From Anaerolineae bacterium (GTDB lineage Bacteria; Chloroflexota; Anaerolineae; Aggregatilineales; Phototrophicaceae), in the NCBI GenBank assembly GCA_022843745.1, contig JALHNB010000032.1, positions 1 through 64,000 of the forward strand: a stretch of DNA of 64,000 bases, in the 5' to 3' direction. The notes beneath the pieces were generated by a model. The model ran no database searches. It was not told the DNA's origin and saw only the letters and a list, made by a program, of their open reading frames with translations. The translations under genes were made by a program, and so were the position numbers. Positions 54,085-64,000 of the stretch are shown here, piece by piece. How positions within the stretch are numbered: position 1 is the first letter of the stretch; each line of letters starts with the position of its first letter.

Positions 54085-54972
54085 CTAGAATTTCAACGCG
54101 CCTTCCAGCAAGCCCTTCATGTACCAGCGCTGGGCAAAGGCAAAAACAATAATCCCCGGCGTAATCACCATGATATACACCGCTGCGATACGCGGCCACG
54201 CCCATGCGCCCAGGCCACCGAATGCGCTTGCCAGCACAACGGGCATCGTGCGAACGCCTTGATCGTTGGTCAATGTGTAGGCCAAAAGATATTCACCCCA
54301 GGCCGTGACGAAATTCACCATCACCAGAACGACAAGCCCATTTTTGACCAGTGGCAGCATCACATGCCAGAAAGTCTGCCATGAGCTACAGCCGTCAATA
54401 TTGGCCGCATCGACAATTTCGAACGAAATTTGCTCGAACATGCCGCGCATAATCAGGATGCTGGTCGCAAGATTCAATGTCACATAGGGCAAGATCAGCC
54501 CCGGCAGGGTGTTAATCAGGCCGATTTCGTTTTGAATCTCAAAAATAGCGATCAGTGAAATAAGGCGACTGGGGAAAAAGAGTGATCCTACCAGCAGGCT
54601 GAGGACGATAGATCGGCCTCGCAATCGCAGATGTACCAGAGCATAGCCAGCCAGCACCGCGCAAACACTTGTCAGGAACACGGTGGACAACGTGACCACG
54701 ATGCTGTTGCTCATGTTCTGAATCAGCGTCGGGACGGCGTTAAACACATAACCGTAGTGCGAAAAATCGAACTGCTGCGGCCAGAATGTGCCTGTATAAG
54801 CGTCTGGCAGCGATTTCACCGACAGGAGAAATACCCAGGCCAACGGGATCAGCACGATCAGACAAAAGAAGATCAGGATCGAATGGAGCAGAACGGTACT
54901 CCAACGCAAGCGGGGTCTGCGCGGCATGATAATGGGTCTGCTGACGGCAACAGAAGATTGGGAAACTTCCAT
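54085..54972 (-). CDS. Carbohydrate ABC transporter permease, MalG type
   Basis: 295 residues. LLHSILIFFCLIVLIPLAWV is the first helix; the EAA loop is VDAANIDGCSSWQTFWHVML, characteristic of MalG/LacG permeases. I start at ATG 54972, with GAGAGG upstream, 11 nt after the MalF-type stop; 37 upstream residues in the frame lie inside that gene. Confidence 0.9.
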   Translation of the reverse strand: MEVSQSSVAVSRPIIMPRRPRLRWSTVLLHSILIFFCLIVLIPLAWVFLLSVKSLPDAYTGTFWPQQFDFSHYGYVFNAVPTLIQNMSNSIVVTLSTVFLTSVCAVLAGYALVHLRLRGRSIVLSLLVGSLFFPSRLISLIAIFEIQNEIGLINTLPGLILPYVTLNLATSILIMRGMFEQISFEIVDAANIDGCSSWQTFWHVMLPLVKNGLVVLVMVNFVTAWGEYLLAYTLTNDQGVRTMPVVLASAFGGLGAWAWPRIAAVYIMVITPGIIVFAFAQRWYMKGLLEGALKF

Positions 54973-54983
54973 GTCGATACCTC

Positions 54984-55928
54984 TCAATCCCGATTGCGGA
55001 AAATATAGAACAAACCACCCACGACAACCAGCATCGCCGACGCACCTATCCAGCCAATTGCTGCCGCATAGCCCTGGAACCAATCACCTAACTGGAAGGC
55101 CAGATGCCACATATAGACTGTCCAGGTATAGGTTGGCAGTCCACGATTAAACCCACCAAAAATCAAATATTCATCAATAACAGCCATCGCCGTACCGAAA
55201 CGCAGCACGACCAGCACCAGCATCACGGGACGCAGGCGTGGAAGCGTTATACGCCAGAACATTTGCCATTCATTCGCGCCATCCACACGAGCCGCATCGA
55301 ACATCTCGCCGGGGATAGAGGCCAGCCCTGCCAGGAAAAAAATCGTGTGGTAGCCCAATCCCCACCAGATTTCCATTAAGGCAATCGCTGGGAGCGCAAG
55401 CGGCGTATTACCCAACCATTGTGGCGCAGTTCGGTACGTGAACAGGTGCAGACCATCGACCAGAAGGATATTAATCGGGCCAATCTCAAAGTCATAAAGC
55501 CATTTCCACAGCACAAAAATCATTGGGCCGGGAATCACTGCCGGAATCAAAAGGATGAGCCTGTAAGTGCTCGCCAGACGCTCCGTTTTCACGCGATCCA
55601 GCAAAACCGCCAGAAACAGCGGAATAAAGATCGTCCCCGGCAAAAATAGCGCGGTAAAGGTTGCCGCCCGCAGCAGACCCTCATACATAATCGGGTCGTT
55701 CAGCGCATTCGCGTAATTCTGAAACCCGACCCACTGGATAGGATCACGCCGCAGGTAGTGATAATCGGTAAAGCTGATGATAAAGACACGGATAATCGGG
55801 TAAACCTGATACCCAATAAAAAAGAGAATCGCCGGGACAATATAGAGCCAGTGTCCCGCGTACTTGATTTCTTTTCGGATTTGCTGCCAGAGGCCGCCGC
55901 GCCTGTTCGACAGAGTGAGACTCGCCAT
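54984..55928 (-). CDS. Carbohydrate ABC transporter permease, MalF type
   Basis: 314 residues. HWLYIVPAILFFIGYQVYPI begins the membrane part; the EAA loop is FDAARVDGANEWQMFWRITL. I start at ATG 55928, with GGGAG upstream; the 22 further residues open in this frame are not family-like. It forms the sugar channel with the MalG-type protein. No ATPase is encoded nearby; such systems often share a common MsmK-type ATPase. Confidence 0.9.
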   Translation of the reverse strand: MASLTLSNRRGGLWQQIRKEIKYAGHWLYIVPAILFFIGYQVYPIIRVFIISFTDYHYLRRDPIQWVGFQNYANALNDPIMYEGLLRAATFTALFLPGTIFIPLFLAVLLDRVKTERLASTYRLILLIPAVIPGPMIFVLWKWLYDFEIGPINILLVDGLHLFTYRTAPQWLGNTPLALPAIALMEIWWGLGYHTIFFLAGLASIPGEMFDAARVDGANEWQMFWRITLPRLRPVMLVLVVLRFGTAMAVIDEYLIFGGFNRGLPTYTWTVYMWHLAFQLGDWFQGYAAAIGWIGASAMLVVVGGLFYIFRNRD

Positions 55929-56009
55929 TGTTTTCTCCCAAAGACGGTGTAGCTGAAGATACCCGTTTCCAGTGAGAAAACGGGTATCCTGCATTTTTAT
56001 GCTTCGAGA

Positions 56010-57401
56010 CTAGCTTGTCTTCGCAATTTCAGCGGCGACAGCGTCTTTGGCGGCCTGGAGCGCAACCAGCGGGTCGGGTTCTGCGCCTGTCAGATACGTT
56101 TCCCATATTGGCTGTCCGAGGACGAACTGCTGTAAACCAAATGAGTGGTTGGGGATGGCCTTCGCCACGTCAAGCTGTCCGCGTACCAGCGGCACCCAGC
56201 TTTCCGCTGCCAGCCATTCCGGTTCATCAGCTTCCCAGCCTGCGTAGATTGATTTATAAGGCGGGAGTTGACCGGGGTGCGCTGTTGGGCTGCCTGCAAT
56301 CGAGTCCTGCCAGATGCGTGGATTCTGGGTGAGCGCGGCCATGTATTCAGCGGCCTTCTCTTTATTCTGACCATATTTGAACAAGCAAGCGCCCGTTGTC
56401 CAGAACACGGTAGAACCTGCGCCACCAGCGGCGGTGGGCAGTGCGCCCATACGCAGGGCTGAAGGGTCTGTCCAGTTAGCGGCGTAACGCAGCGGCGCAT
56501 TCTGATATTTGATGTAGTAAGCGACGGACTGGCTGCCAAACGCCACTTCGTCGGGCGTATTGTTAACACCGCCATCGCTTGTGCCCGGTTGCAGAGCGTT
56601 TGCCGATGACAAATCGAGCATCTGTTTCATGACTTTTAGGGCTTCGACTGCCGCATCATTGGTGAAATCGAAAAGCGGTGTCGGGTTATCGCCGAGTTGA
56701 TAATAAACATCCGTGCTAAAGCTGTGGGTAATTGGGGCAAGCGAACGCCAGCCGTGTGCATCAAACGTACAGCCATAGCGCGCCGCGCCTGCATCCAGCA
56801 CCGCTTTTGAGTTCGCAAGATATTCATCCCAGTTCGCAGGAGGAACATCGGGCAGACCTGCCGCTGTCGTGATCGAAGAGTTATAACCCTGGACGATCAC
56901 ATCCAGCAGGAACGGCCATGAGTACAATTTACCATCAACCGTGCATTCCTCACGGATGGAGGGGATCATGTCGTCAAGTATCTCTTTGGGAATATAGTCG
57001 TCCCAGGGTTCAATCACGCCAGCTTCGATCAAAGCAGCCATTTCCACAAACGGTGTCATGCCGACGTAGACATCCCAGGTGCTTTCTTCATTCGCTGCCT
57101 CCGCGACAAAGCGGGCGACATCAAACCCCTGAACGGGCGCGATCTGGAAGTTCAGGTCGCCAAATGCAGCATTCACGTCTGGAATACCTGGATGCAAATC
57201 CACAATCCATTGATAGAAACTGGGAGTTAGTGGACGGCTTTCCTGTGCAAAAGCACGCCCCGGCGCGGCCAGTCCCCGGACACCGGACAGGCCTAACCCC
57301 GCGCCGAGCATTGCTTGCATGAACTGCCGACGCGACAGCCGTCCTTGTTTTAACTGATTGAGTAAAGCATTTTCAATAATATGTTCACGTTCGCTTTTCA
57401 T
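56010..57401 (-). CDS. Sugar ABC transporter substrate-binding protein with Tat signal
   Basis: 463 residues. The N-terminus has SRRQFMQAMLGAGLGLSG, a twin-arginine export signal, with cleavage likely near RAFAQES. The rest is an extracellular solute-binding protein family 1 fold (WDVYVGMTPFVEMAALIEAG, GKLYSWPFLLDVIVQGYN). Tat export implies it folds before leaving the cell. It is the first gene of the MalFG-type importer operon. GGGGAG precedes the ATG. Confidence 0.88.
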   Translation of the reverse strand: MKSEREHIIENALLNQLKQGRLSRRQFMQAMLGAGLGLSGVRGLAAPGRAFAQESRPLTPSFYQWIVDLHPGIPDVNAAFGDLNFQIAPVQGFDVARFVAEAANEESTWDVYVGMTPFVEMAALIEAGVIEPWDDYIPKEILDDMIPSIREECTVDGKLYSWPFLLDVIVQGYNSSITTAAGLPDVPPANWDEYLANSKAVLDAGAARYGCTFDAHGWRSLAPITHSFSTDVYYQLGDNPTPLFDFTNDAAVEALKVMKQMLDLSSANALQPGTSDGGVNNTPDEVAFGSQSVAYYIKYQNAPLRYAANWTDPSALRMGALPTAAGGAGSTVFWTTGACLFKYGQNKEKAAEYMAALTQNPRIWQDSIAGSPTAHPGQLPPYKSIYAGWEADEPEWLAAESWVPLVRGQLDVAKAIPNHSFGLQQFVLGQPIWETYLTGAEPDPLVALQAAKDAVAAEIAKTS

Positions 57402-57853: not shown

Positions 57854-59824
57854 ATGACTGAAGTTGAACGCAAGCGCCGGATCGAAAAACTTGCGGGCTT
57901 TGTTTTGCCTAAGGGTAATTACACATTACAGGATCACGTCGCTACCAGCCATATGTCGGTGGTCTATAAAGCGCTGGACAACGCCTCGCGCCGCTATGTC
58001 GCCATCAAGATTCTGCTTGACGAGAAATTTTACTGGCGTTTTGAGAATGAATTTGAACTTTCCTATGACCTGACTGTGACCAATATTGCCGTCACAACCC
58101 GCGCCGATCTGGTCGGCGAGATTATTTTTGATGGTGACGGCGATATCGTCATCAAGTATCTCGTCATGAAATGGCTTTCAGGTTTATCGCTGCTGGATAT
58201 CATCCGCAAGAATCGCGAAGATCCCAAACCGACTCAACAGCTTTTAGAAGAAGCGCTGGCGATCCTGCGCAAGTTAGCCCCGGCGCTGGATACGATTCAC
58301 CAGAAAAACATCTATCACCGCGACATCAAGCCCAGCAATATCCGGTTTAACAACGACACTAACGAGCGTAACGAACCCTATTTATTGGATTTTGGCATCG
58401 CTAAAAAAGGGCATATTGAGGAAACAACGCTTGTTGTCGCCCGTGAAAGCACAACCGTTGGCGAGTACACAGGCACACCACGCTATATGCCGCCGGAGCA
58501 GTGGGACGGGAATGTCAATTCCGGCGCAAGCGATCAATACGCGCTGGCAATTACCATTTACGAACTGCTGTCCGATGGCACTTCGCCATTCAGAAAATCG
58601 ATGCAATCGACCTCTCCAACATCACCTTCTGGTAATGGTAGCAATCCTGCCAACGTCTATGCGTGGCAAAAAGCGCATCGGGAAGCCGAGCCAACGTCGA
58701 TCAAGGAATACCGTTTTGATGTACCAGAAGCAGTCTGGCAGATACTCAAACAGGCAATGAGCAAAGACGCTTCGCAGCGGTACGAAAATATTAAGCTATT
58801 CCAGGAAGCGTTCCAGAGCGCTGTACATCCTTACTCACCAAAACCGCGCTTGAATGCCCCAATGCCAAACGTACAGCAGGCTGTTTATCACCCACCACAG
58901 GACGCACCAACGTGGCCCAAGAATGTGCCTGTACCGCAGACACGCTCTCGAACGCCCATAATCGGCGCAATCATTTTTATCATTGTGGGTATCATTGGCG
59001 CACTCATCGTTTTGCCATCATTTTTGGCGACACCTACAGCAACACCTACCGTTATCGTATCAACCTCACCTACAACACCAACCGTTATTGCAGCAACGAA
59101 CGAGGCCGCAGTCGCGATTATTCCAACGGCTACGCCGACCATTCCGAGTGATACCCCAGCTCACACATTGACTCCGGCTCAAGAAGCGACGCACACATCC
59201 CAGCCGCCTTCGGCAACACCCGTGCCACCTGCCGCCGCAGTGGTCATTCCAACAACGACACCTTCTCCCCTTCCACCGTCACCAACCAGCACGCGCACAC
59301 CTGTGCCAAGCGATACACCAATGCCATCCGCCACCAGCACACCGAGCCAGACACCGACTCGCGTTCCTTCCAATACACCTATTCCACCAACAGCCACAAC
59401 CACACCTTCTTCAACACCAACGCGCACACCGACAACATTGCCAACTGCGACTCATACCCCAATGCCGACTCTGACTGCTACACTCACCGCTACACCGATG
59501 GTCAAGGATTTTGTGGAATTATTGGATCAGATCACCAGGGCTGGAAGCAGCGCGGCCCGTTTTGACTGCGCCGGATATGTTGAGGCTTATGAAGGCTTGG
59601 AGGATGCCGTCGCCGTTTCATCGGTGGAAGTTGAGGTCGCTATCATCGCGCCAATAGTTGAAGATGGTGCGGAGACGCTGCCCGTGCTGTACGAATTTTG
59701 TAATCGGGAGCAAAATCGGACACAGAATAGCATCCAACTGCCCTCGAATATCAGCAACAATCAGTTTCGCGACCTGCGAGGAGTGATTGGCGAGGCCAAA
59801 CGCGCGATTCAAAATCTACGCTAA
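57854..59824 (+). CDS. Receptor-type Ser/Thr protein kinase with Thr/Pro-rich stalk
   Basis: 656 residues. The kinase domain (about 20-320) has the ATP-anchoring K52 in YVAIKIL, catalytic D157 in YHRDIKPSN and the metal-binding D179 in DFGIAK, plus PPEQWDG. The nucleotide loop, normally GxGxxGxV, reads ATSHMSVV (30-37) with no Gly, which is unusual for an active kinase. One membrane helix at about 367-390 (IIGAIIFIIVGIIGALIVLP) is followed by a Thr/Pro/Ser stalk (about 392-550) and a roughly 100-residue outside domain with two Cys that I do not recognise. It probably senses something outside and signals inside. It converges on the RHS gene. Confidence 0.88.
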   Translation: MTEVERKRRIEKLAGFVLPKGNYTLQDHVATSHMSVVYKALDNASRRYVAIKILLDEKFYWRFENEFELSYDLTVTNIAVTTRADLVGEIIFDGDGDIVIKYLVMKWLSGLSLLDIIRKNREDPKPTQQLLEEALAILRKLAPALDTIHQKNIYHRDIKPSNIRFNNDTNERNEPYLLDFGIAKKGHIEETTLVVARESTTVGEYTGTPRYMPPEQWDGNVNSGASDQYALAITIYELLSDGTSPFRKSMQSTSPTSPSGNGSNPANVYAWQKAHREAEPTSIKEYRFDVPEAVWQILKQAMSKDASQRYENIKLFQEAFQSAVHPYSPKPRLNAPMPNVQQAVYHPPQDAPTWPKNVPVPQTRSRTPIIGAIIFIIVGIIGALIVLPSFLATPTATPTVIVSTSPTTPTVIAATNEAAVAIIPTATPTIPSDTPAHTLTPAQEATHTSQPPSATPVPPAAAVVIPTTTPSPLPPSPTSTRTPVPSDTPMPSATSTPSQTPTRVPSNTPIPPTATTTPSSTPTRTPTTLPTATHTPMPTLTATLTATPMVKDFVELLDQITRAGSSAARFDCAGYVEAYEGLEDAVAVSSVEVEVAIIAPIVEDGAETLPVLYEFCNREQNRTQNSIQLPSNISNNQFRDLRGVIGEAKRAIQNLR

Positions 59825-59838
59825 AAAATGGGGTGTTC

Positions 59839-59866
59839 GTAGGGCGACTCGGCGAGCCGTCCCTAT
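59839..59866. repeat. Degenerate intergenic palindrome, GTAGGGGCG family (copy 5)
   Basis: GTAGGGCGACTCG, one base, CGAGCCGTCCCTAT: the same element as at 2562 with a lost G and two arm changes. It separates the kinase stop from the convergent RHS stop by itself, since the gap is only 46 nt. Confidence 0.75.
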
Positions 59867-59870
59867 ACAA

Positions 59871-62800
59871 TCACCGCCCCAGCCAACCAAAATTCACGCC
59901 AAGCCCATAATCCAGTACCTTCGGAGCAGGCTTCACAGGCCAGCGGCGGCTCAGAGTCGTGGCGATACCGAGGGTATCATCGGTAAACCACTGGTCGCGA
60001 TAGGCGGCAGCATCGGCAGGCGGTAAATCTGGCGGAGTCGGCAACGCATCGTCCAACGCCTGCTGAAGCCAATCCTCGCCTGTCATAAAGGGTAGCTGAT
60101 CGAGCGTTTCAACAAGGCCAATCACGGACTCCGCACTGCGATAGCCACCCAGCGGACGCGGCAAATGTTGGAGAAGCGCTGCCGGAGTGCGATCAACGGA
60201 AAAACGCGGCGCGATTGATTCCCAGGTATCCGCCAATGTCCTATTCCTGGCTTGCCAGCCGCGATTCAGATAGGTTGTGAAGCGATAAGCCGGGAGTCGC
60301 ATTCGATCAACCAGCGATGCCAAACGCGCCTGTGGCTGCACAATTTGCGAGGGAATCCATTGGCTATTTCCCCAGATCGCATCACCAAAGTCAAGCTGTC
60401 GTGCCGTACCCCAGCCGCCTTGCCCTGGCGCATTGTCCTCCAGAAGCCGCAGTGCGCCGTTGGTGGGGTCAATCTGTGCTCCCGGCAGGTTAAAATTATT
60501 GGCTAACCAGTTTGGCAGGTTGATGAAGCTGCTGAGTTCTTCGCGTTGATTGAGTGCAGGTTGCAGCACATCATCAACGAAAGCATTTTCGCGCATCCCT
60601 GTTGGCGCTGGCTGATGATGCGCTTTGATCGACTCGGCGGTAAAAGCCGCAGCCGTTTGTTCAATTTCCAGTGCTTGATTAAGGATGCGCAGGCCTTCGC
60701 CATACTGCGGAGTCGAACGTTGAACAGGTGGCGTTCCCCGGCGCGGCGGATAATCATACACATTCCCCAGCGCATCAGGGCCGAGTGGATCACGCTGCAA
60801 GAAACGGGCAAGCTCCGGCACATAGACGCGAGCATCCGTAAAAACGAGGTTATTTTGTGTATCCCAGAGTTGATCCTGACCAATTACCTGAAAACCCTGC
60901 CAGCTATCCGGCGCGGCGAGGAGTAAACAGGGGTCAGGGGTATCTGTCGGTGCGGTCAGCGTTAGATAACGCCCAAACGGGTCGAATAACCACACTGCAT
61001 TCGGCGTTTCGGACTCACCATAACTTCGTGTGCCAAACGCCTGACCTGAGCCGCCGTAAATATAAGGCGCGATCTCATCACCCTGGGCGCTGAAAAGCGG
61101 TACACCATCGGCAGATTGGACGTGATAAGCTGCGCCGCCGTTTTCGGTAATCATGAACGGTGTCCGGTTCGCGCCATGATACACAAACTGCTGCCCGTTT
61201 GCCTCGATCACGCGATTATAGACATCATAGCGATAGGCCGTCATGTTTTCGCCGCGCTGCACTTCGATCAGCCGATTCGCGCCGTCATAAGTATAGGCCC
61301 CGCAGACCGTACCATTGGCGCTCACGCTGTTCATATTGCCCTGATTATCGTAGGTATAGGCGAAACGCAGAGTGGCGAGATTATCCTGCGCACCAACAAT
61401 CAGGAAGGTCGAAAATCCGGCGAGTCCGACTGCGATGACCATGAACAAAGGCGCATACCGTTTTCTACGTGAAAGCCCGGCGATACCCCCTAGCAGAGCC
61501 AGCGCGATTACCCCGGCGGCCTGCGGTGGATTTTGTGGCGTGTTGATCGTCACCGTGCGCGATAAAAGCTGATTGCGCTGCTCACCATATTGATAATCAA
61601 TCACGACCTGTGTGACATCTTTACATTGTGGCACATCTTTTCGCGCACCATTTTCATCCAGGCACATTTCGTCAGGTAACTGTCCGTATTGACGCACTTC
61701 CTGGTCAAGCTGACTGTATTCCGTGTAAACGAATGTCACCTGATAGAGCAAACGGTTGCCGCCGCTGTCGTTAATGCGCATGGTCAGCAGATTATCGTTT
61801 TGATCGTAACCCAGGACGATGATATAGCCTTCCGCCCCGTTCATAAAATAAGCGGGGTCAAAACTGCTGATCGCCTGACGCTGTGTTAAACGAGTCGGAC
61901 TCAGCACATTATCAACGATAAAGCCTTCGCCCATTGGGATATAGTCGATGCGCAGATCATCACCCTGGCGGTTAACGTAAAAATCCATCGCGTAATCGTC
62001 ACCCCAAAAGAGCGTAAACGGCGTGATTCCGCTTTCGTCCTGTGTGCCATATTCGACGCTTAGAACGGGCGTTGATTCTTCCGATTCACCTGGGGCATAT
62101 TGCACCGATTGCAGCAGGCCACTCGGGAACAGCGAAAATGTTAACGTCGCGCCGGTCTGCTCATCACGAATGCTGTAGCTCAGATTGCTGTCGTCATAAT
62201 CATAAATGAGCTGCTGTGTACCCGCCTGGACGATGCTCAAACGACCATTCGCATCATAGCCATATTTCAATTGGCCGCTGACCGCACTAAGCTGCTCCAA
62301 ACCTGCATACTCCAGCGTATAATCGCCAATGGATGTCAGCAAACTGAGTGCATCAGGCGAATAGCCCAGTTCGGTTTCGCCCCATTTTGTGAGTGCGCCG
62401 CCGTTATAGGTGTAGGGAATTGAGGTCTGGTCGAACGCTTGTGTGACGATCAGCCCCAACGCATCATAGTTATAGCTTTCCAGCACGCCATTTTCCGCAG
62501 CGCAGGCATCATAGCTCAAAGATCGCTCGGTCAACGCCTGACAAACGCCCGTCACCTGATCGAGATCATACGAGAGGATGATGTCAACACCTGCCGGGCC
62601 GCTGATGCGCGTCAAACGATTGAGATCATCGTAGATATAGTTATAAGTTTTGCCATCTTCATTCTGGTAACTGACCAGATTTCCAGCGTCATCATAAGAA
62701 AACGCCTCGACATTCTGTTCTTCGTTGATCGTGCGGATCAAACGCCCCAGCGTGTCATAGCGGAAGCGGAAATTCGCACGCCACACATTTTGCGCTTCGT

Positions 62801-64000
62801 CATCTTCACAAACGGGCTGACCATCAATCGTATAAAGTTCAGGCGAAACGCTGTCGAGATTAAAATAGGGTTCTTGCAGGCAGGTTTCGCGCGTGATGTC
62901 TTCGAGCAGACCTTCGGCGTTATAGGTATAAAGTGTGCGTTGACCGGGGCCGCGGACGGCGATCTTCGGTGGTTGGCGGTCATCACCCGGCGAAAATGTA
63001 TAAATGCGTGTGACATCTGCGCTGCTTTGACGCAAATTCAGAATGCCATCGTCAGTGGGATAATAACCATAATCCGTCGTTGCATCGCTACTTTGCGATT
63101 GAACCAGACGATAGAGCGAGTCAAACCTCAAAGTTGATTCATTATGAAAACCATCACTCACCGCGATTTCCGGGCGCTGATCGCTATGCTGAAGCGTCCA
63201 GAGATTATCTTCGCCATTCGGATTGGCGGTAAAAAGTTTGCCAAGTGCATCATACTGAAAACTCAACGGAGGCTGTGGCGCATTTTCAACCGACAAGAGC
63301 TGGCTCGACGGCGAGAGCATGAAATCCCAGCCCCAGCCCTCCACATCCTCGGCGGAAATCCCGATCTGATAATTGGCAAACTCGTAGTTCAGCAGCATAT
63401 TACGCGCCGATTCGCCACTAGTTCGCCATTCGGTGAGGTTGCCAGCCGCGTCATAAATCAGATCATATTGACGATTCTGTGGACGATTAATGCGCCAAAG
63501 CGCCCCCAAACTGTCGAATGTATAGATCGTTTGTTTACCACGTGCGTCGGTATAGGTGAGCGTGTTAGCGCTGTCATTCCAATCGTAGCGGTTGCGTCCG
63601 GCAGCATTGATGATGGCGGTCAGCCGAGTCGGGTCTACGCGATCCTGATATTCATAGGTCGTGACAATCCCCAACGGCGAAATCACGCTGTCGAGCAGAC
63701 CTTTGGCGTTATAGGTGTAGCTGATCGAATCGCCTGTCTGAATATCCTGCCGCAAAATCAACTGTCCGGCGCTGTTATAAGCATAGACCGAGCCGCGCCC
63801 CAGGCCATCCACCGCACTGGTTAACAAATCTGCCGTGTTGTAGGTATAAGTCATGGTTTCATGAGGTGCGCCGTCCACCGCCACATACAGCAAGCGCCCC
63901 AAACGGTCATATTCATAGCGCCGGGTAACACCATGCTCATCCGTCCAGGAGGTCATATCACCCGCCGCGTCGTAAGCGAACATCCAGGTGAACGTTCCTG
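59871..64000 (-). CDS. RHS/YD-repeat protein, 5' end beyond the window
   Basis: At least 1375 residues; the frame is open to the right edge, so the N-terminus is missing. Many YD repeats are visible (YDAAGDMTSW, YEYDRLGRLL, YDDAGNLVSY, YDANGRLSIV, YTYDGANRLIEV), which fold into a hollow shell. The RHS core ending is DARVYVPELARFLQRDPLGP, encoded near 60750-60840. About 300 residues follow it and are unlike the repeats; in RHS toxins this place holds the effector, but I recognise no toxin motif. Two hydrophobic helices (encoded about 61390-61545) interrupt the repeats, an odd feature. No immunity-type gene follows; the next gene downstream is the convergent kinase. Confidence 0.88.
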   Translation of the reverse strand, partial: GTFTWMFAYDAAGDMTSWTDEHGVTRRYEYDRLGRLLYVAVDGAPHETMTYTYNTADLLTSAVDGLGRGSVYAYNSAGQLILRQDIQTGDSISYTYNAKGLLDSVISPLGIVTTYEYQDRVDPTRLTAIINAAGRNRYDWNDSANTLTYTDARGKQTIYTFDSLGALWRINRPQNRQYDLIYDAAGNLTEWRTSGESARNMLLNYEFANYQIGISAEDVEGWGWDFMLSPSSQLLSVENAPQPPLSFQYDALGKLFTANPNGEDNLWTLQHSDQRPEIAVSDGFHNESTLRFDSLYRLVQSQSSDATTDYGYYPTDDGILNLRQSSADVTRIYTFSPGDDRQPPKIAVRGPGQRTLYTYNAEGLLEDITRETCLQEPYFNLDSVSPELYTIDGQPVCEDDEAQNVWRANFRFRYDTLGRLIRTINEEQNVEAFSYDDAGNLVSYQNEDGKTYNYIYDDLNRLTRISGPAGVDIILSYDLDQVTGVCQALTERSLSYDACAAENGVLESYNYDALGLIVTQAFDQTSIPYTYNGGALTKWGETELGYSPDALSLLTSIGDYTLEYAGLEQLSAVSGQLKYGYDANGRLSIVQAGTQQLIYDYDDSNLSYSIRDEQTGATLTFSLFPSGLLQSVQYAPGESEESTPVLSVEYGTQDESGITPFTLFWGDDYAMDFYVNRQGDDLRIDYIPMGEGFIVDNVLSPTRLTQRQAISSFDPAYFMNGAEGYIIVLGYDQNDNLLTMRINDSGGNRLLYQVTFVYTEYSQLDQEVRQYGQLPDEMCLDENGARKDVPQCKDVTQVVIDYQYGEQRNQLLSRTVTINTPQNPPQAAGVIALALLGGIAGLSRRKRYAPLFMVIAVGLAGFSTFLIVGAQDNLATLRFAYTYDNQGNMNSVSANGTVCGAYTYDGANRLIEVQRGENMTAYRYDVYNRVIEANGQQFVYHGANRTPFMITENGGAAYHVQSADGVPLFSAQGDEIAPYIYGGSGQAFGTRSYGESETPNAVWLFDPFGRYLTLTAPTDTPDPCLLLAAPDSWQGFQVIGQDQLWDTQNNLVFTDARVYVPELARFLQRDPLGPDALGNVYDYPPRRGTPPVQRSTPQYGEGLRILNQALEIEQTAAAFTAESIKAHHQPAPTGMRENAFVDDVLQPALNQREELSSFINLPNWLANNFNLPGAQIDPTNGALRLLEDNAPGQGGWGTARQLDFGDAIWGNSQWIPSQIVQPQARLASLVDRMRLPAYRFTTYLNRGWQARNRTLADTWESIAPRFSVDRTPAALLQHLPRPLGGYRSAESVIGLVETLDQLPFMTGEDWLQQALDDALPTPPDLPPADAAAYRDQWFTDDTLGIATTLSRRWPVKPAPKVLDYGLGVNFGWLGR

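Follow-up and report, generated by a model that had tools for sequence, protein, structure and literature searches.

The window, i.e., the whole stretch of 64,000 nucleotides that was analyzed, carries two convergent genes with stop codons separated by 46 bp. One encodes a receptor-type Ser/Thr kinase (57854..59824, plus strand; 656 residues) and the other an RHS/YD-repeat protein, whose C-terminal half is encoded by positions 59871..64000 of the minus strand. The kinase comprises a catalytic domain (approximately residues 20 to 330), a transmembrane helix (residues 369 to 387; 58958..59014, plus strand; hydropathy of 3.25), a T/P/S-rich stalk predicted to lie outside the cell (59015..59500, plus strand; 61% T/P/S), and a C-terminal domain of approximately 107 residues and five helices, designated OUT (59501..59821, plus strand). 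A second hydrophobic stretch, at residue 584, is weaker (1.69) and falls within this outside domain. The Pfam Pkinase model matched the protein above its curated cut-off (E = 5.5e-26; 92 bits versus 31.7), and the best matches of a PDB sequence search included PknA and PknB. The score against the PASTA-kinase equivalog (Stk1/PknB, NCBIfam NF033483) was 130.4 versus a cut-off of 450. The catalytic residues of the VAIK (K52), HRD (D157), and DFG (D179) motifs are present, in agreement with the original prediction, which had also rightly proposed a long stalk followed by an outside domain of no known family. An anti-phage defense function was rejected, since the PADLOC matches of the kinase domain to PD-T4-6, mad6, and other entries were taken as generic kinase similarity and the RHS protein had none.

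The RHS gene continues beyond the window to position 68489 of the contig (C32:59871-68489, minus strand) and, taken as the longest frame, encodes a protein of 2,872 residues that has a hydrophobic segment at its N terminus; of these residues, only the last 1,370 are encoded in the window. Pfam analysis identified RHS_repeat (E = 4.9e-45, 11 stretches) and DUF6531 (E = 6.2e-8; 33.3 versus a cut-off of 24.1), and the RHS-associated core domain TIGR03696 scored 26.5 versus a cut-off of 32.5 for the 1,370-residue part. Between YD repeats, an SRRKR turn is flanked by hydrophobic segments (residues 2322 and 2348), which together form a putative membrane hairpin of two helices and an Arg-rich turn (61392..61526, minus strand; residues 2322 to 2366 of the full protein). 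The description of a giant YD-repeat protein with two membrane helices holds, although it had been derived from approximately half of the protein. Two such segments were found in 14 of 19 RHS proteins and a single one in 2 of 19, with none passing the threshold in G041, G010, and G027. The first core-end motif, DPLG (60780..60791, minus strand), is followed by a tail of approximately 300 residues (59874..60779, minus strand) that is conserved within its subgroup of RHS proteins. The gene adjoining the 3′ end of the RHS gene, the side on which an RHS toxin would have its cognate immunity gene, is that of the kinase in the window. Recurrence of the hairpin and of the tail in relatives indicates that these features are not peculiar to the window copy. 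Structure prediction of the C-terminal part was too poor for use (mean pLDDT of 35.1).

The glycine-rich loop (GxGxxG) is absent from the window kinase. The corresponding segment, V29-A-T-S-H-M-S-V-V-Y38 (57938..57967, plus strand), carries A30, S32, and S35 at the three Gly positions, and residues 24 to 45 contain no glycine, as had been noted from the outset. A local mutation was ruled out as the cause, since orthologues share the loop rather than having the standard one (LIASSHMSVVY in G428, FVASSHMSVVY in G429, and LIASSNMSVVY in G436). Among kinases close to the query or encoded in the fetched stretches, which are not a random sample, all three Gly positions were replaced in 6 of the 75 with a readable loop (5 of 80 distinct kinase domains were excluded because the loop was unreadable), and these six form one clade (0.998). 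Loss of every loop glycine in a single clade would fit a pseudokinase or a nucleotide-sensing scaffold, the window unit then signaling without phosphoryl transfer. We regard this as improbable because the K, D, and D residues of the VAIK, HRD, and DFG motifs are retained in all six kinases, the substitutes are mostly small (A, S, and T; K once), Ala also occupies the first aligned loop position in Mycobacterium tuberculosis PknA, to which the window loop aligns gap-free, and Toxoplasma WNG1 is described in excerpts of PMC6442604 as active despite having no Gly loop. In BPK1, the solved member of the WNG family, a helical extension replaces both the loop and the first strand, according to the same excerpts. 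In OUT-containing kinases outside the Gly-less clade, two or three of the loop glycines remain (one in G003), and the Gly-less kinases of G016 and G452 have no OUT match, so that a Gly-less loop is not a defining feature of the unit.

The OUT domain was predicted with high confidence by AF2 as a helical domain of approximately 100 residues (pLDDT of 93.6), with two cysteines that are invariant in alignments A1 and A2, and is common to the RHS-linked kinases. Foldseek returned no match at E ≤ 0.001. VIA-align returned helical bundles with a best Z of 8.1, including Psb27 (Z = 7.8) and the sensor domain of KinB (Z = 6.8), a range that corresponds to a possible common arrangement according to the notes of the tool. 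We could not match OUT to a known family and consider it to be a candidate sensor domain. Of the 18 OUT places in the order, 17 kinases were checked, and each has a transmembrane segment ahead of OUT. These kinases do not form one clade in the kinase-domain tree, the deep branches of which are weak, yet they share the outside domain. Beyond the order, with at most 12 candidates per genome scored, OUT was detected in at least 6 of 396 genomes of the class sample (E ≤ 0.01; the matches in G240 and G401, outside the family, were weak) and in at least 2 of 400 genomes of the phylum sample (E ≤ 0.001), both from the same family as the window genome.

Of the 15 order-level OUT kinase genes whose contigs permit a test, 12 adjoin a gene of the same RHS family. 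Since the profile HMMs for this comparison were built from loci L031, L091, L093, and L095 to L103, hits at these loci were obtained by construction and the other loci are independent; of the 12 places outside this definition, 6 were linked, 3 were not, and 3 lay on truncated or insufficiently long contigs, which gives linkage in 6 of 9 testable copies. With the RHS genes as the starting point, an OUT kinase gene adjoins 12 of 21 copies; it was not found in the covered stretch at 8 copies (G002, G005, G006, G009, G027, G428, G450, and the second copy of G015), the contig of the remaining copy (G025) being cut. Conversely, no RHS gene was found within the 20-kb stretches around the OUT kinase genes of G027, G009, and the second G015 copy. 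The two genes are convergent in seven genomes (G000, G008, G439, G436, G429, G500, and G501). In G041 and G003, the kinase gene is located upstream of the RHS gene and the predicted frames overlap by 4 bp; in G015, it is codirectional and downstream; in G010 and G028, the two genes share a strand and are separated by a VWA-FHA gene. Linked loci occur in families f1, f6, and f8 of the order. In genus g13, a second kinase family is encoded upstream of the RHS gene.

Co-occurrence was assessed in 98 genomes of the family. OUT was present in 14, all of which also carry the RHS family, detected in at least 17 genomes at E < 1e-20 among 13 candidates per genome (hypergeometric, 2e-14). This cut-off was set after inspection of the list and excluded G435 (2.9e-11) and G437 (2.3e-14), the inclusion of which would give 19. 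By genus, 9 OUT-positive genera fell within 11 RHS-positive genera of 24 (4e-5); this count includes G450, for which OUT positivity depends solely on a weak match (E = 0.003), located in a short open reading frame without a kinase hit. The same 4 of 17 genomes of genus g13 carry OUT and the RHS family at E < 1e-20, and the RHS family is present in G002, G005, and G006 without any OUT hit in the genome. In the class, the RHS C terminus was found in at least 8 of 396 genomes (E ≤ 1e-25, 3 candidates per genome scored), one match, in G295, lying outside the family (E = 3.5e-29) on a 9-kb contig without a kinase gene. Distances between kinase parts correlate with those between RHS parts (12 pairs, r of 0.90 to 0.95, Mantel P of 2e-4 to 4e-4), the species tree not being controlled for.

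Linkage and co-occurrence rule out chance neighbors, and the repeated adjacency of an RHS gene and a receptor kinase gene suggests a surface sensing unit. The original prediction had conceded that the pairing might be accidental and would have been contradicted by relatives without the neighborhood or by orthologues that all had a standard Gly loop; neither proved to be the case. Recurrence of the neighborhood and of the Gly-less loop in orthologues supports its proposal of a functional unit, in which we infer contact between the two proteins. Linkage and co-occurrence can also reflect inheritance of a cassette. The genes could belong to a surface-gene cassette maintained by co-transfer, with products that do not interact, as might be expected from the patchy distribution (RHS family in at least 17 of 98 family genomes), the existence of two-gene and larger versions, and the unlinked copies (three of the OUT kinase and eight of the RHS gene). 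Such a cassette appears rather unlikely to us, since linkage outlasted changes in gene order and orientation in families f1, f6, and f8, predicted frames overlap at two loci, and the kinases share an outside domain despite not forming one clade in the weakly resolved kinase-domain tree.

Loci of the sister subgroup B additionally encode a membrane protein combining VWA and FHA parts and, often, a PP2C phosphatase (PP2C and FHA identified by Pfam). The VWA-FHA family was detected in 8 of 98 genomes (E ≤ 1e-40), which are exactly the 8 genomes with a subgroup B RHS protein, and was not found in G000 at this threshold among 12 candidates scored. Kinase, PP2C, and FHA genes occurred together only in G015 (C186) among the stretches covered, and not beside the window pair.

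The composition of these loci raises the possibility that the RHS protein acts as a contact-dependent toxin, or carries one, and that the kinase, with the FHA and PP2C parts in subgroup B, governs its deployment in the manner of PpkA, PppA, and Fha for type VI secretion. RHS proteins described so far are often toxin carriers (PMC8636562, in part), and a pore-forming Rhs toxin is on record (PMC10684867, in part). A second DxxG motif is retained in 4 of 12 aligned RHS proteins, including that of the window. However, the second DPxGL motif, which is the site of the catalytic Asp in Photorhabdus laumondii Rhs1 according to excerpts of PMC8636562, is missing from the window protein, where TPPVQ replaces it, and from the subgroup A relatives shown. 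As anticipated from the initial inspection, the tail is unrecognized, in that a Pfam search returned nothing up to E = 5. Subgroup A tails align across genera, with 27 to 46% identity to the tail of the window protein, and mean identities within subgroups (25 to 28% for the tail and 32 to 40% for the shell parts) indicate that the tail is not swapped within subgroups. Between subgroups, tail identity is only 15%, and profile comparison yields an alignment confined to the end of the core and the beginning of the tail (132 columns, probability of 95.6, 14% identity), a partial alignment that would be compatible with toxin cargo. Within subgroups, a swappable toxin tail is unsupported, as the tails are homologous and collinear rather than variable; this conservation and the absence of the second cleavage motif in the window argue against swappable cargo. 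In addition, a protein with this hairpin would stay attached to the cell that made it. We therefore consider a toxin unlikely, if somewhat less so than the alternatives discussed above.

We give roughly even chances to the reading in which the receptor kinase and an RHS shell anchored in the membrane work as a coupled surface sensing and signaling unit. Its basis is computed: the gene structure, the recurrent linkage, the co-occurrence, the recurrent hairpin and tail, the kinase motifs, and the shared OUT domain. From these we infer the topology, contact between RHS and OUT, kinase activity, direction of signaling, signal, and substrates. The RHS protein would be exported, probably by Sec, and would form a YD-repeat shell on the outside, and the internal hairpin, with its Arg-rich turn facing the cytoplasm, would anchor the protein in the membrane; it would not be a releasable toxin. 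The kinase would be a single-pass receptor with its catalytic domain inside and the stalk and OUT outside. OUT would most likely sense the state of the RHS protein near the membrane (assembly, contact with a ligand or a neighbor, or damage), which the kinase would relay by Ser/Thr phosphorylation. In subgroup B, the VWA-FHA membrane protein may read phosphothreonine and PP2C may reset this mark. More tentatively, the unit may follow the adhesion-receptor principle of teneurins, with an RHS shell that has abandoned toxin delivery, sits fixed in its own membrane through the hairpin, and forms the outer part of a sensor of contact or of the envelope. A dedicated receptor kinase would read this sensor by means of a new domain, and sister lineages would add FHA/PP2C output.

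If correct, a recurrent membrane-integral RHS family with a receptor kinase would extend bacterial RHS shells to a signaling role and offer a possible model for the change from shell to receptor seen in teneurins. Toxins have been the main focus of studies of RHS proteins. Chloroflexota have many Ser/Thr kinases, and the RHS protein would also provide one of these, here in a poorly known group of these bacteria, with a partner that can be tested; OUT would be a new candidate sensor domain, and the Gly-less kinases a bacterial clade that lost every loop glycine and kept the catalytic residues. Titles and beginnings of abstracts in the open-access PMC literature revealed no paper on a unit of RHS and receptor kinase, and the main text of PMC13018210, on bacterial teneurin-like proteins, contains neither "kinase" nor "Chloroflex" as a search word.

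Similar to receptor kinases of the PknB/PknA type, the window kinase combines a Hanks-type domain, a single transmembrane helix, and a C-terminal outside part, but OUT replaces the PASTA domains and the loop is Gly-less. Its clade shares with the WNG kinases, as described in part of PMC6442604, the loss of the loop glycines and the conservation of the other catalytic motifs. In contrast to BPK1 in that source, the glycines are only substituted here, in a loop that aligns to that of PknA without a gap. The TerY-P triad comprises VWA, PP2C, and kinase components. Subgroup B loci resemble the type VI threonine-phosphorylation pathway (PpkA, the PP2C phosphatase PppA, and Fha) in that, next to the RHS gene, they encode a receptor-type Ser/Thr kinase and/or PP2C together with an FHA protein that has a VWA-like part. 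PpkA of P. aeruginosa itself carries a VWA domain (PMC1262709, in part), whereas subgroup B has VWA and FHA as a fusion within a single membrane protein and the window has only the kinase and the RHS protein. Finally, the window RHS protein shares the DUF6531 start, the YD repeats, and the first DPLG core-end motif with other RHS/YD-repeat proteins (Rhs toxins, WapA, and bacterial teneurin-like proteins) and differs from them by its internal membrane hairpin, its subgroup-conserved tail, the lack of a second DPxGL motif, and its receptor-kinase partner.

The kinase gene (positions 57854 to 59824, forward strand) and the RHS gene (positions 59871 to 68489 of contig C32, reverse strand, extending beyond the window) are convergent and separated by 46 bp in a draft genome of 7.96 Mb, in which the window covers bases 1 to 64000 of that contig. 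The kinase is composed of a Hanks-type domain, one strong transmembrane segment, a T/P/S-rich stalk, and an outside domain of ~107 residues (OUT). The RHS protein (2,872 residues) contains an N-terminal hydrophobic segment, a DUF6531 start, and YD repeats, two of which flank a hairpin (two hydrophobic segments and an SRRKR turn), followed by more repeats, one DPLG motif, and a tail of ~300 residues. Among named sequences, the RHS gene is most closely related to those of MAGs titled Anaerolineaceae (within Chloroflexota), Anaerolineae, and Chloroflexi and of one titled Bacteroidetes, the last probably mislabeled. By eye, a sugar ABC transporter lies upstream of the kinase gene (window positions 54085 to 57401), and genes for an AlaX-like editing protein and an ABC exporter lie upstream of the RHS gene (stretch L031, 11549 to 17333, reverse strand; contig positions 68548 to 74332).

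The neighborhood survey began from the surroundings of RHS relatives. The kinase is located upstream of the RHS gene in genomes G041 and G003, with predicted frames overlapping by 4 bp, convergent with it in G008, downstream on the same strand in G015, and on the same strand with one intervening gene in G010. These five kinases and that of the window share the outside domain, with invariant C, Y, and C residues. OUT was defined from these six proteins and then searched independently of RHS information, leading to its detection in 17 of 154 order-level genomes (E ≤ 0.001; 18 places), in families f1 (that of the window), f3, f6, and f8. Larger class and phylum samples afforded only two further matches, both weak. 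As far as tested, OUT is a new domain by sequence and model comparisons: of five sequences scanned against Pfam at E ≤ 5, four gave no match and one gave two matches that fell below the cut-off, and the OUT profile retrieved nothing from the PDB below an E value of 0.17. AlphaFold2 (four sequences) predicted a five-helix bundle with high confidence (mean pLDDT, 93.6), for which Foldseek found no match at E ≤ 0.001 and a second structural comparison gave Z values usual for helical bundles.

Among the 12 OUT places not used in the definition, six were linked to the RHS family: the genes are convergent with 1.3 to 2.9 kb between them in G439, G436, and G429, convergent and overlapping in G500 and G501, and separated by a VWA-FHA gene in G028. 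Three showed no RHS linkage in 20-kb stretches (G027, G009, and the second G015 copy); since these kinases group in the kinase-domain tree (support, 0.986), they may form one paralogous lineage. The last three were too short to judge (G428 and G488, contigs of <5 kb; G025, a 10-kb contig in which the OUT kinase adjoins a VWA-FHA gene). Counting from the RHS side gave a lower proportion, with an OUT kinase beside 12 of the 21 copies examined and none near eight in the stretches read, some of which were limited by contig ends (G002, G005, G006, G009, G027, G428, G450, and the second G015 copy); the cut G025 copy was assigned to neither group. The original prediction had allowed for a chance pairing. 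Because an OUT-bearing genome contains one or two OUT kinases in its several megabases, we estimate by hand that the chance of finding one within 3 kb of an RHS gene is roughly 0.2%.

Other kinases were observed near RHS genes. In genus g13, a second kinase of 910 to 928 residues, with glycines in the loop and a different C-terminal part, is encoded directly upstream of the RHS gene (L155, 12999 to 15785, reverse; L157, 162 to 2903, forward; L160, 124 to 2856, forward), so that the RHS gene stands between two kinase genes in G429 and G436. The OUT kinase of G428 is encoded on a contig other than that of the RHS gene and second kinase. Near the G005 RHS gene, a 1,458-residue protein (L100, 14268 to 18644, forward) shows weak kinase similarity (E = 8.7e-5), has the loop YPRGRSGETLRAVD, and matches no Pfam family at E ≤ 0.01; it is possibly a degenerate kinase. 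No kinase match was found in the stretches read around other giant RHS proteins of the same group (2,583 to 4,207 residues; L105 in G045, L106 in G003, L107 and L108 in G041), the G045 protein having two hydrophobic segments near its C terminus.

At the family level, OUT was detected in 14 of 98 genomes (E ≤ 0.01), all included in the 17 containing the RHS family at E < 1e-20 (hypergeometric P = 2e-14); at 1e-10, the RHS family is found in 19. Omitting G450, whose weak OUT match falls in a short ORF that gave no kinase match and whose RHS gene has no kinase neighbor in the stretch read, gave 4e-13. Likewise, nine OUT genera fell within 11 RHS genera of 24 (4e-5), and both families occurred in the same 4 of 17 g13 genomes (RHS, E < 1e-20). 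The RHS gene is present in G002, G005, and G006, all of which lack OUT. Pairwise distances of the kinase and RHS parts were correlated (0.90 to 0.95, 12 pairs, species ancestry not being controlled for), which fits joint inheritance. A cassette whose two products do not interact is one of the main rival explanations, with a low probability.

The nucleotide loop, Gly-less in the window kinase (A30, S32, and S35 at the glycine positions), could be read in 75 distinct kinases obtained from best matches in relatives and fetched stretches. None of the three glycines was present in 6 kinases, one in 2, two in 33, and three in 34. The six Gly-less kinases form a single clade (0.998) and all retain the catalytic K, D, and D, so that the loop is a shared trait and apparently under constraint, rather than the local mutation considered in the original prediction. 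The clade comprises the window kinase, its OUT-bearing orthologues from G428, G429, and G436, and kinases without an OUT match from G016 and G452; a related OUT kinase from G439 is cut by the contig end before the loop. The Gly-less loop is not specific to RHS pairing. In the HMMER alignment, Mycobacterium tuberculosis PknA has an Ala at the first position, and Toxoplasma WNG1, which lacks a Gly loop, is reported to be active as a kinase (PMC6442604). It seems more probable that the window kinase has retained activity than that it is inactive. By eye, TPR-like repeats end the 1,508-residue G016 kinase (L032/L110) and propeller-like repeats that of G452 (L153/L156).

Published polymorphic-toxin RHS proteins consist of a shell and a highly variable C-terminal domain following a PxxxxDPxGL motif; of their two DPLGL motifs, the second contains the catalytic Asp (PMC8636562). 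A toxin controlled by the kinase is the other main rival, slightly more probable than the cassette; a toxin role is conceivable, since tails without Pfam matches may be toxic. Against this, the tail is homologous across genera within subgroups A (including the window copy) and B, and the alignment revealed no second DPLGL motif in the window protein and the subgroup A relatives shown; DxxG occupied that position in 4 of 12 aligned proteins, all from subgroup B. Mean identity was 28% (A) and 25% (B) for the tail and 33% (A) and 40% (B) for the pre-hairpin shell, subgroup A tails being 27 to 46% identical to that of the window. Tail identity between subgroups was 15%. Since the alignment of the A and B profiles covers only the core end and first tail part (132 columns; probability, 95.6; E = 1.2e-8), the last part may have been exchanged long ago. 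Among 19 family proteins, the hairpin was detected as two segments in 14 and as one in two, and no hairpin segment passed the threshold in G041, G010, and G027; single segments beyond the hairpin and N terminus passed it in five (G002, G008, the second G015 copy, G439, and G005, with two). On these features, the RHS protein appears unlike polymorphic toxins.

Computation established the linkage, co-occurrence, domain anatomy, and conservation of the kinase/RHS pair. The most likely reading, to which we give about an even chance, is an RHS shell anchored in the membrane and monitored by a receptor kinase: the RHS protein would be exported and held in the membrane, OUT would contact this shell, and the kinase would be active and relay the resulting signal. 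In searches of open-access papers for such a unit, no description of it appeared among the titles and abstract openings. Two threonine-kinase passages in a 2012 polymorphic-toxin survey (PMC3482391) deal with one plant target and one kinase as a toxin domain, neither concerning an RHS receptor-kinase unit.

Beside subgroup B RHS genes lies a gene whose product combines a VWA-like part, a transmembrane segment (ahead of the FHA region in 7/7 checked), and an FHA domain (Pfam, 5/5 scanned; VWA above the cut-off in two and below it in one more). At E ≤ 1e-40, the VWA-FHA family occurs in 8 of the 98 family genomes, and these are precisely the ones that contain subgroup B RHS genes (G005, G006, G009, G010, G015, G025, G027, and G028); in six of them, it adjoins the RHS gene. 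Four genomes encode PP2C phosphatases close by, at two loci in G015 and one each in G006, G009, and G027, and Pfam confirmed three of the five; kinase-OUT, VWA-FHA, PP2C, and RHS occur all together only on G015 contig C186. By eye, the stalk and OUT of subgroup B OUT kinases are separated by an additional region (L097, 11810 to 14083, forward; L099, 16339 to 18510, reverse). Since the window genome has no VWA-FHA match at E ≤ 1e-40, its unit is the two-gene version, perhaps with output proteins encoded elsewhere. The parts list of subgroup B resembles that of the type VI secretion pathway formed by PpkA, PppA, and Fha (PMC3953482).
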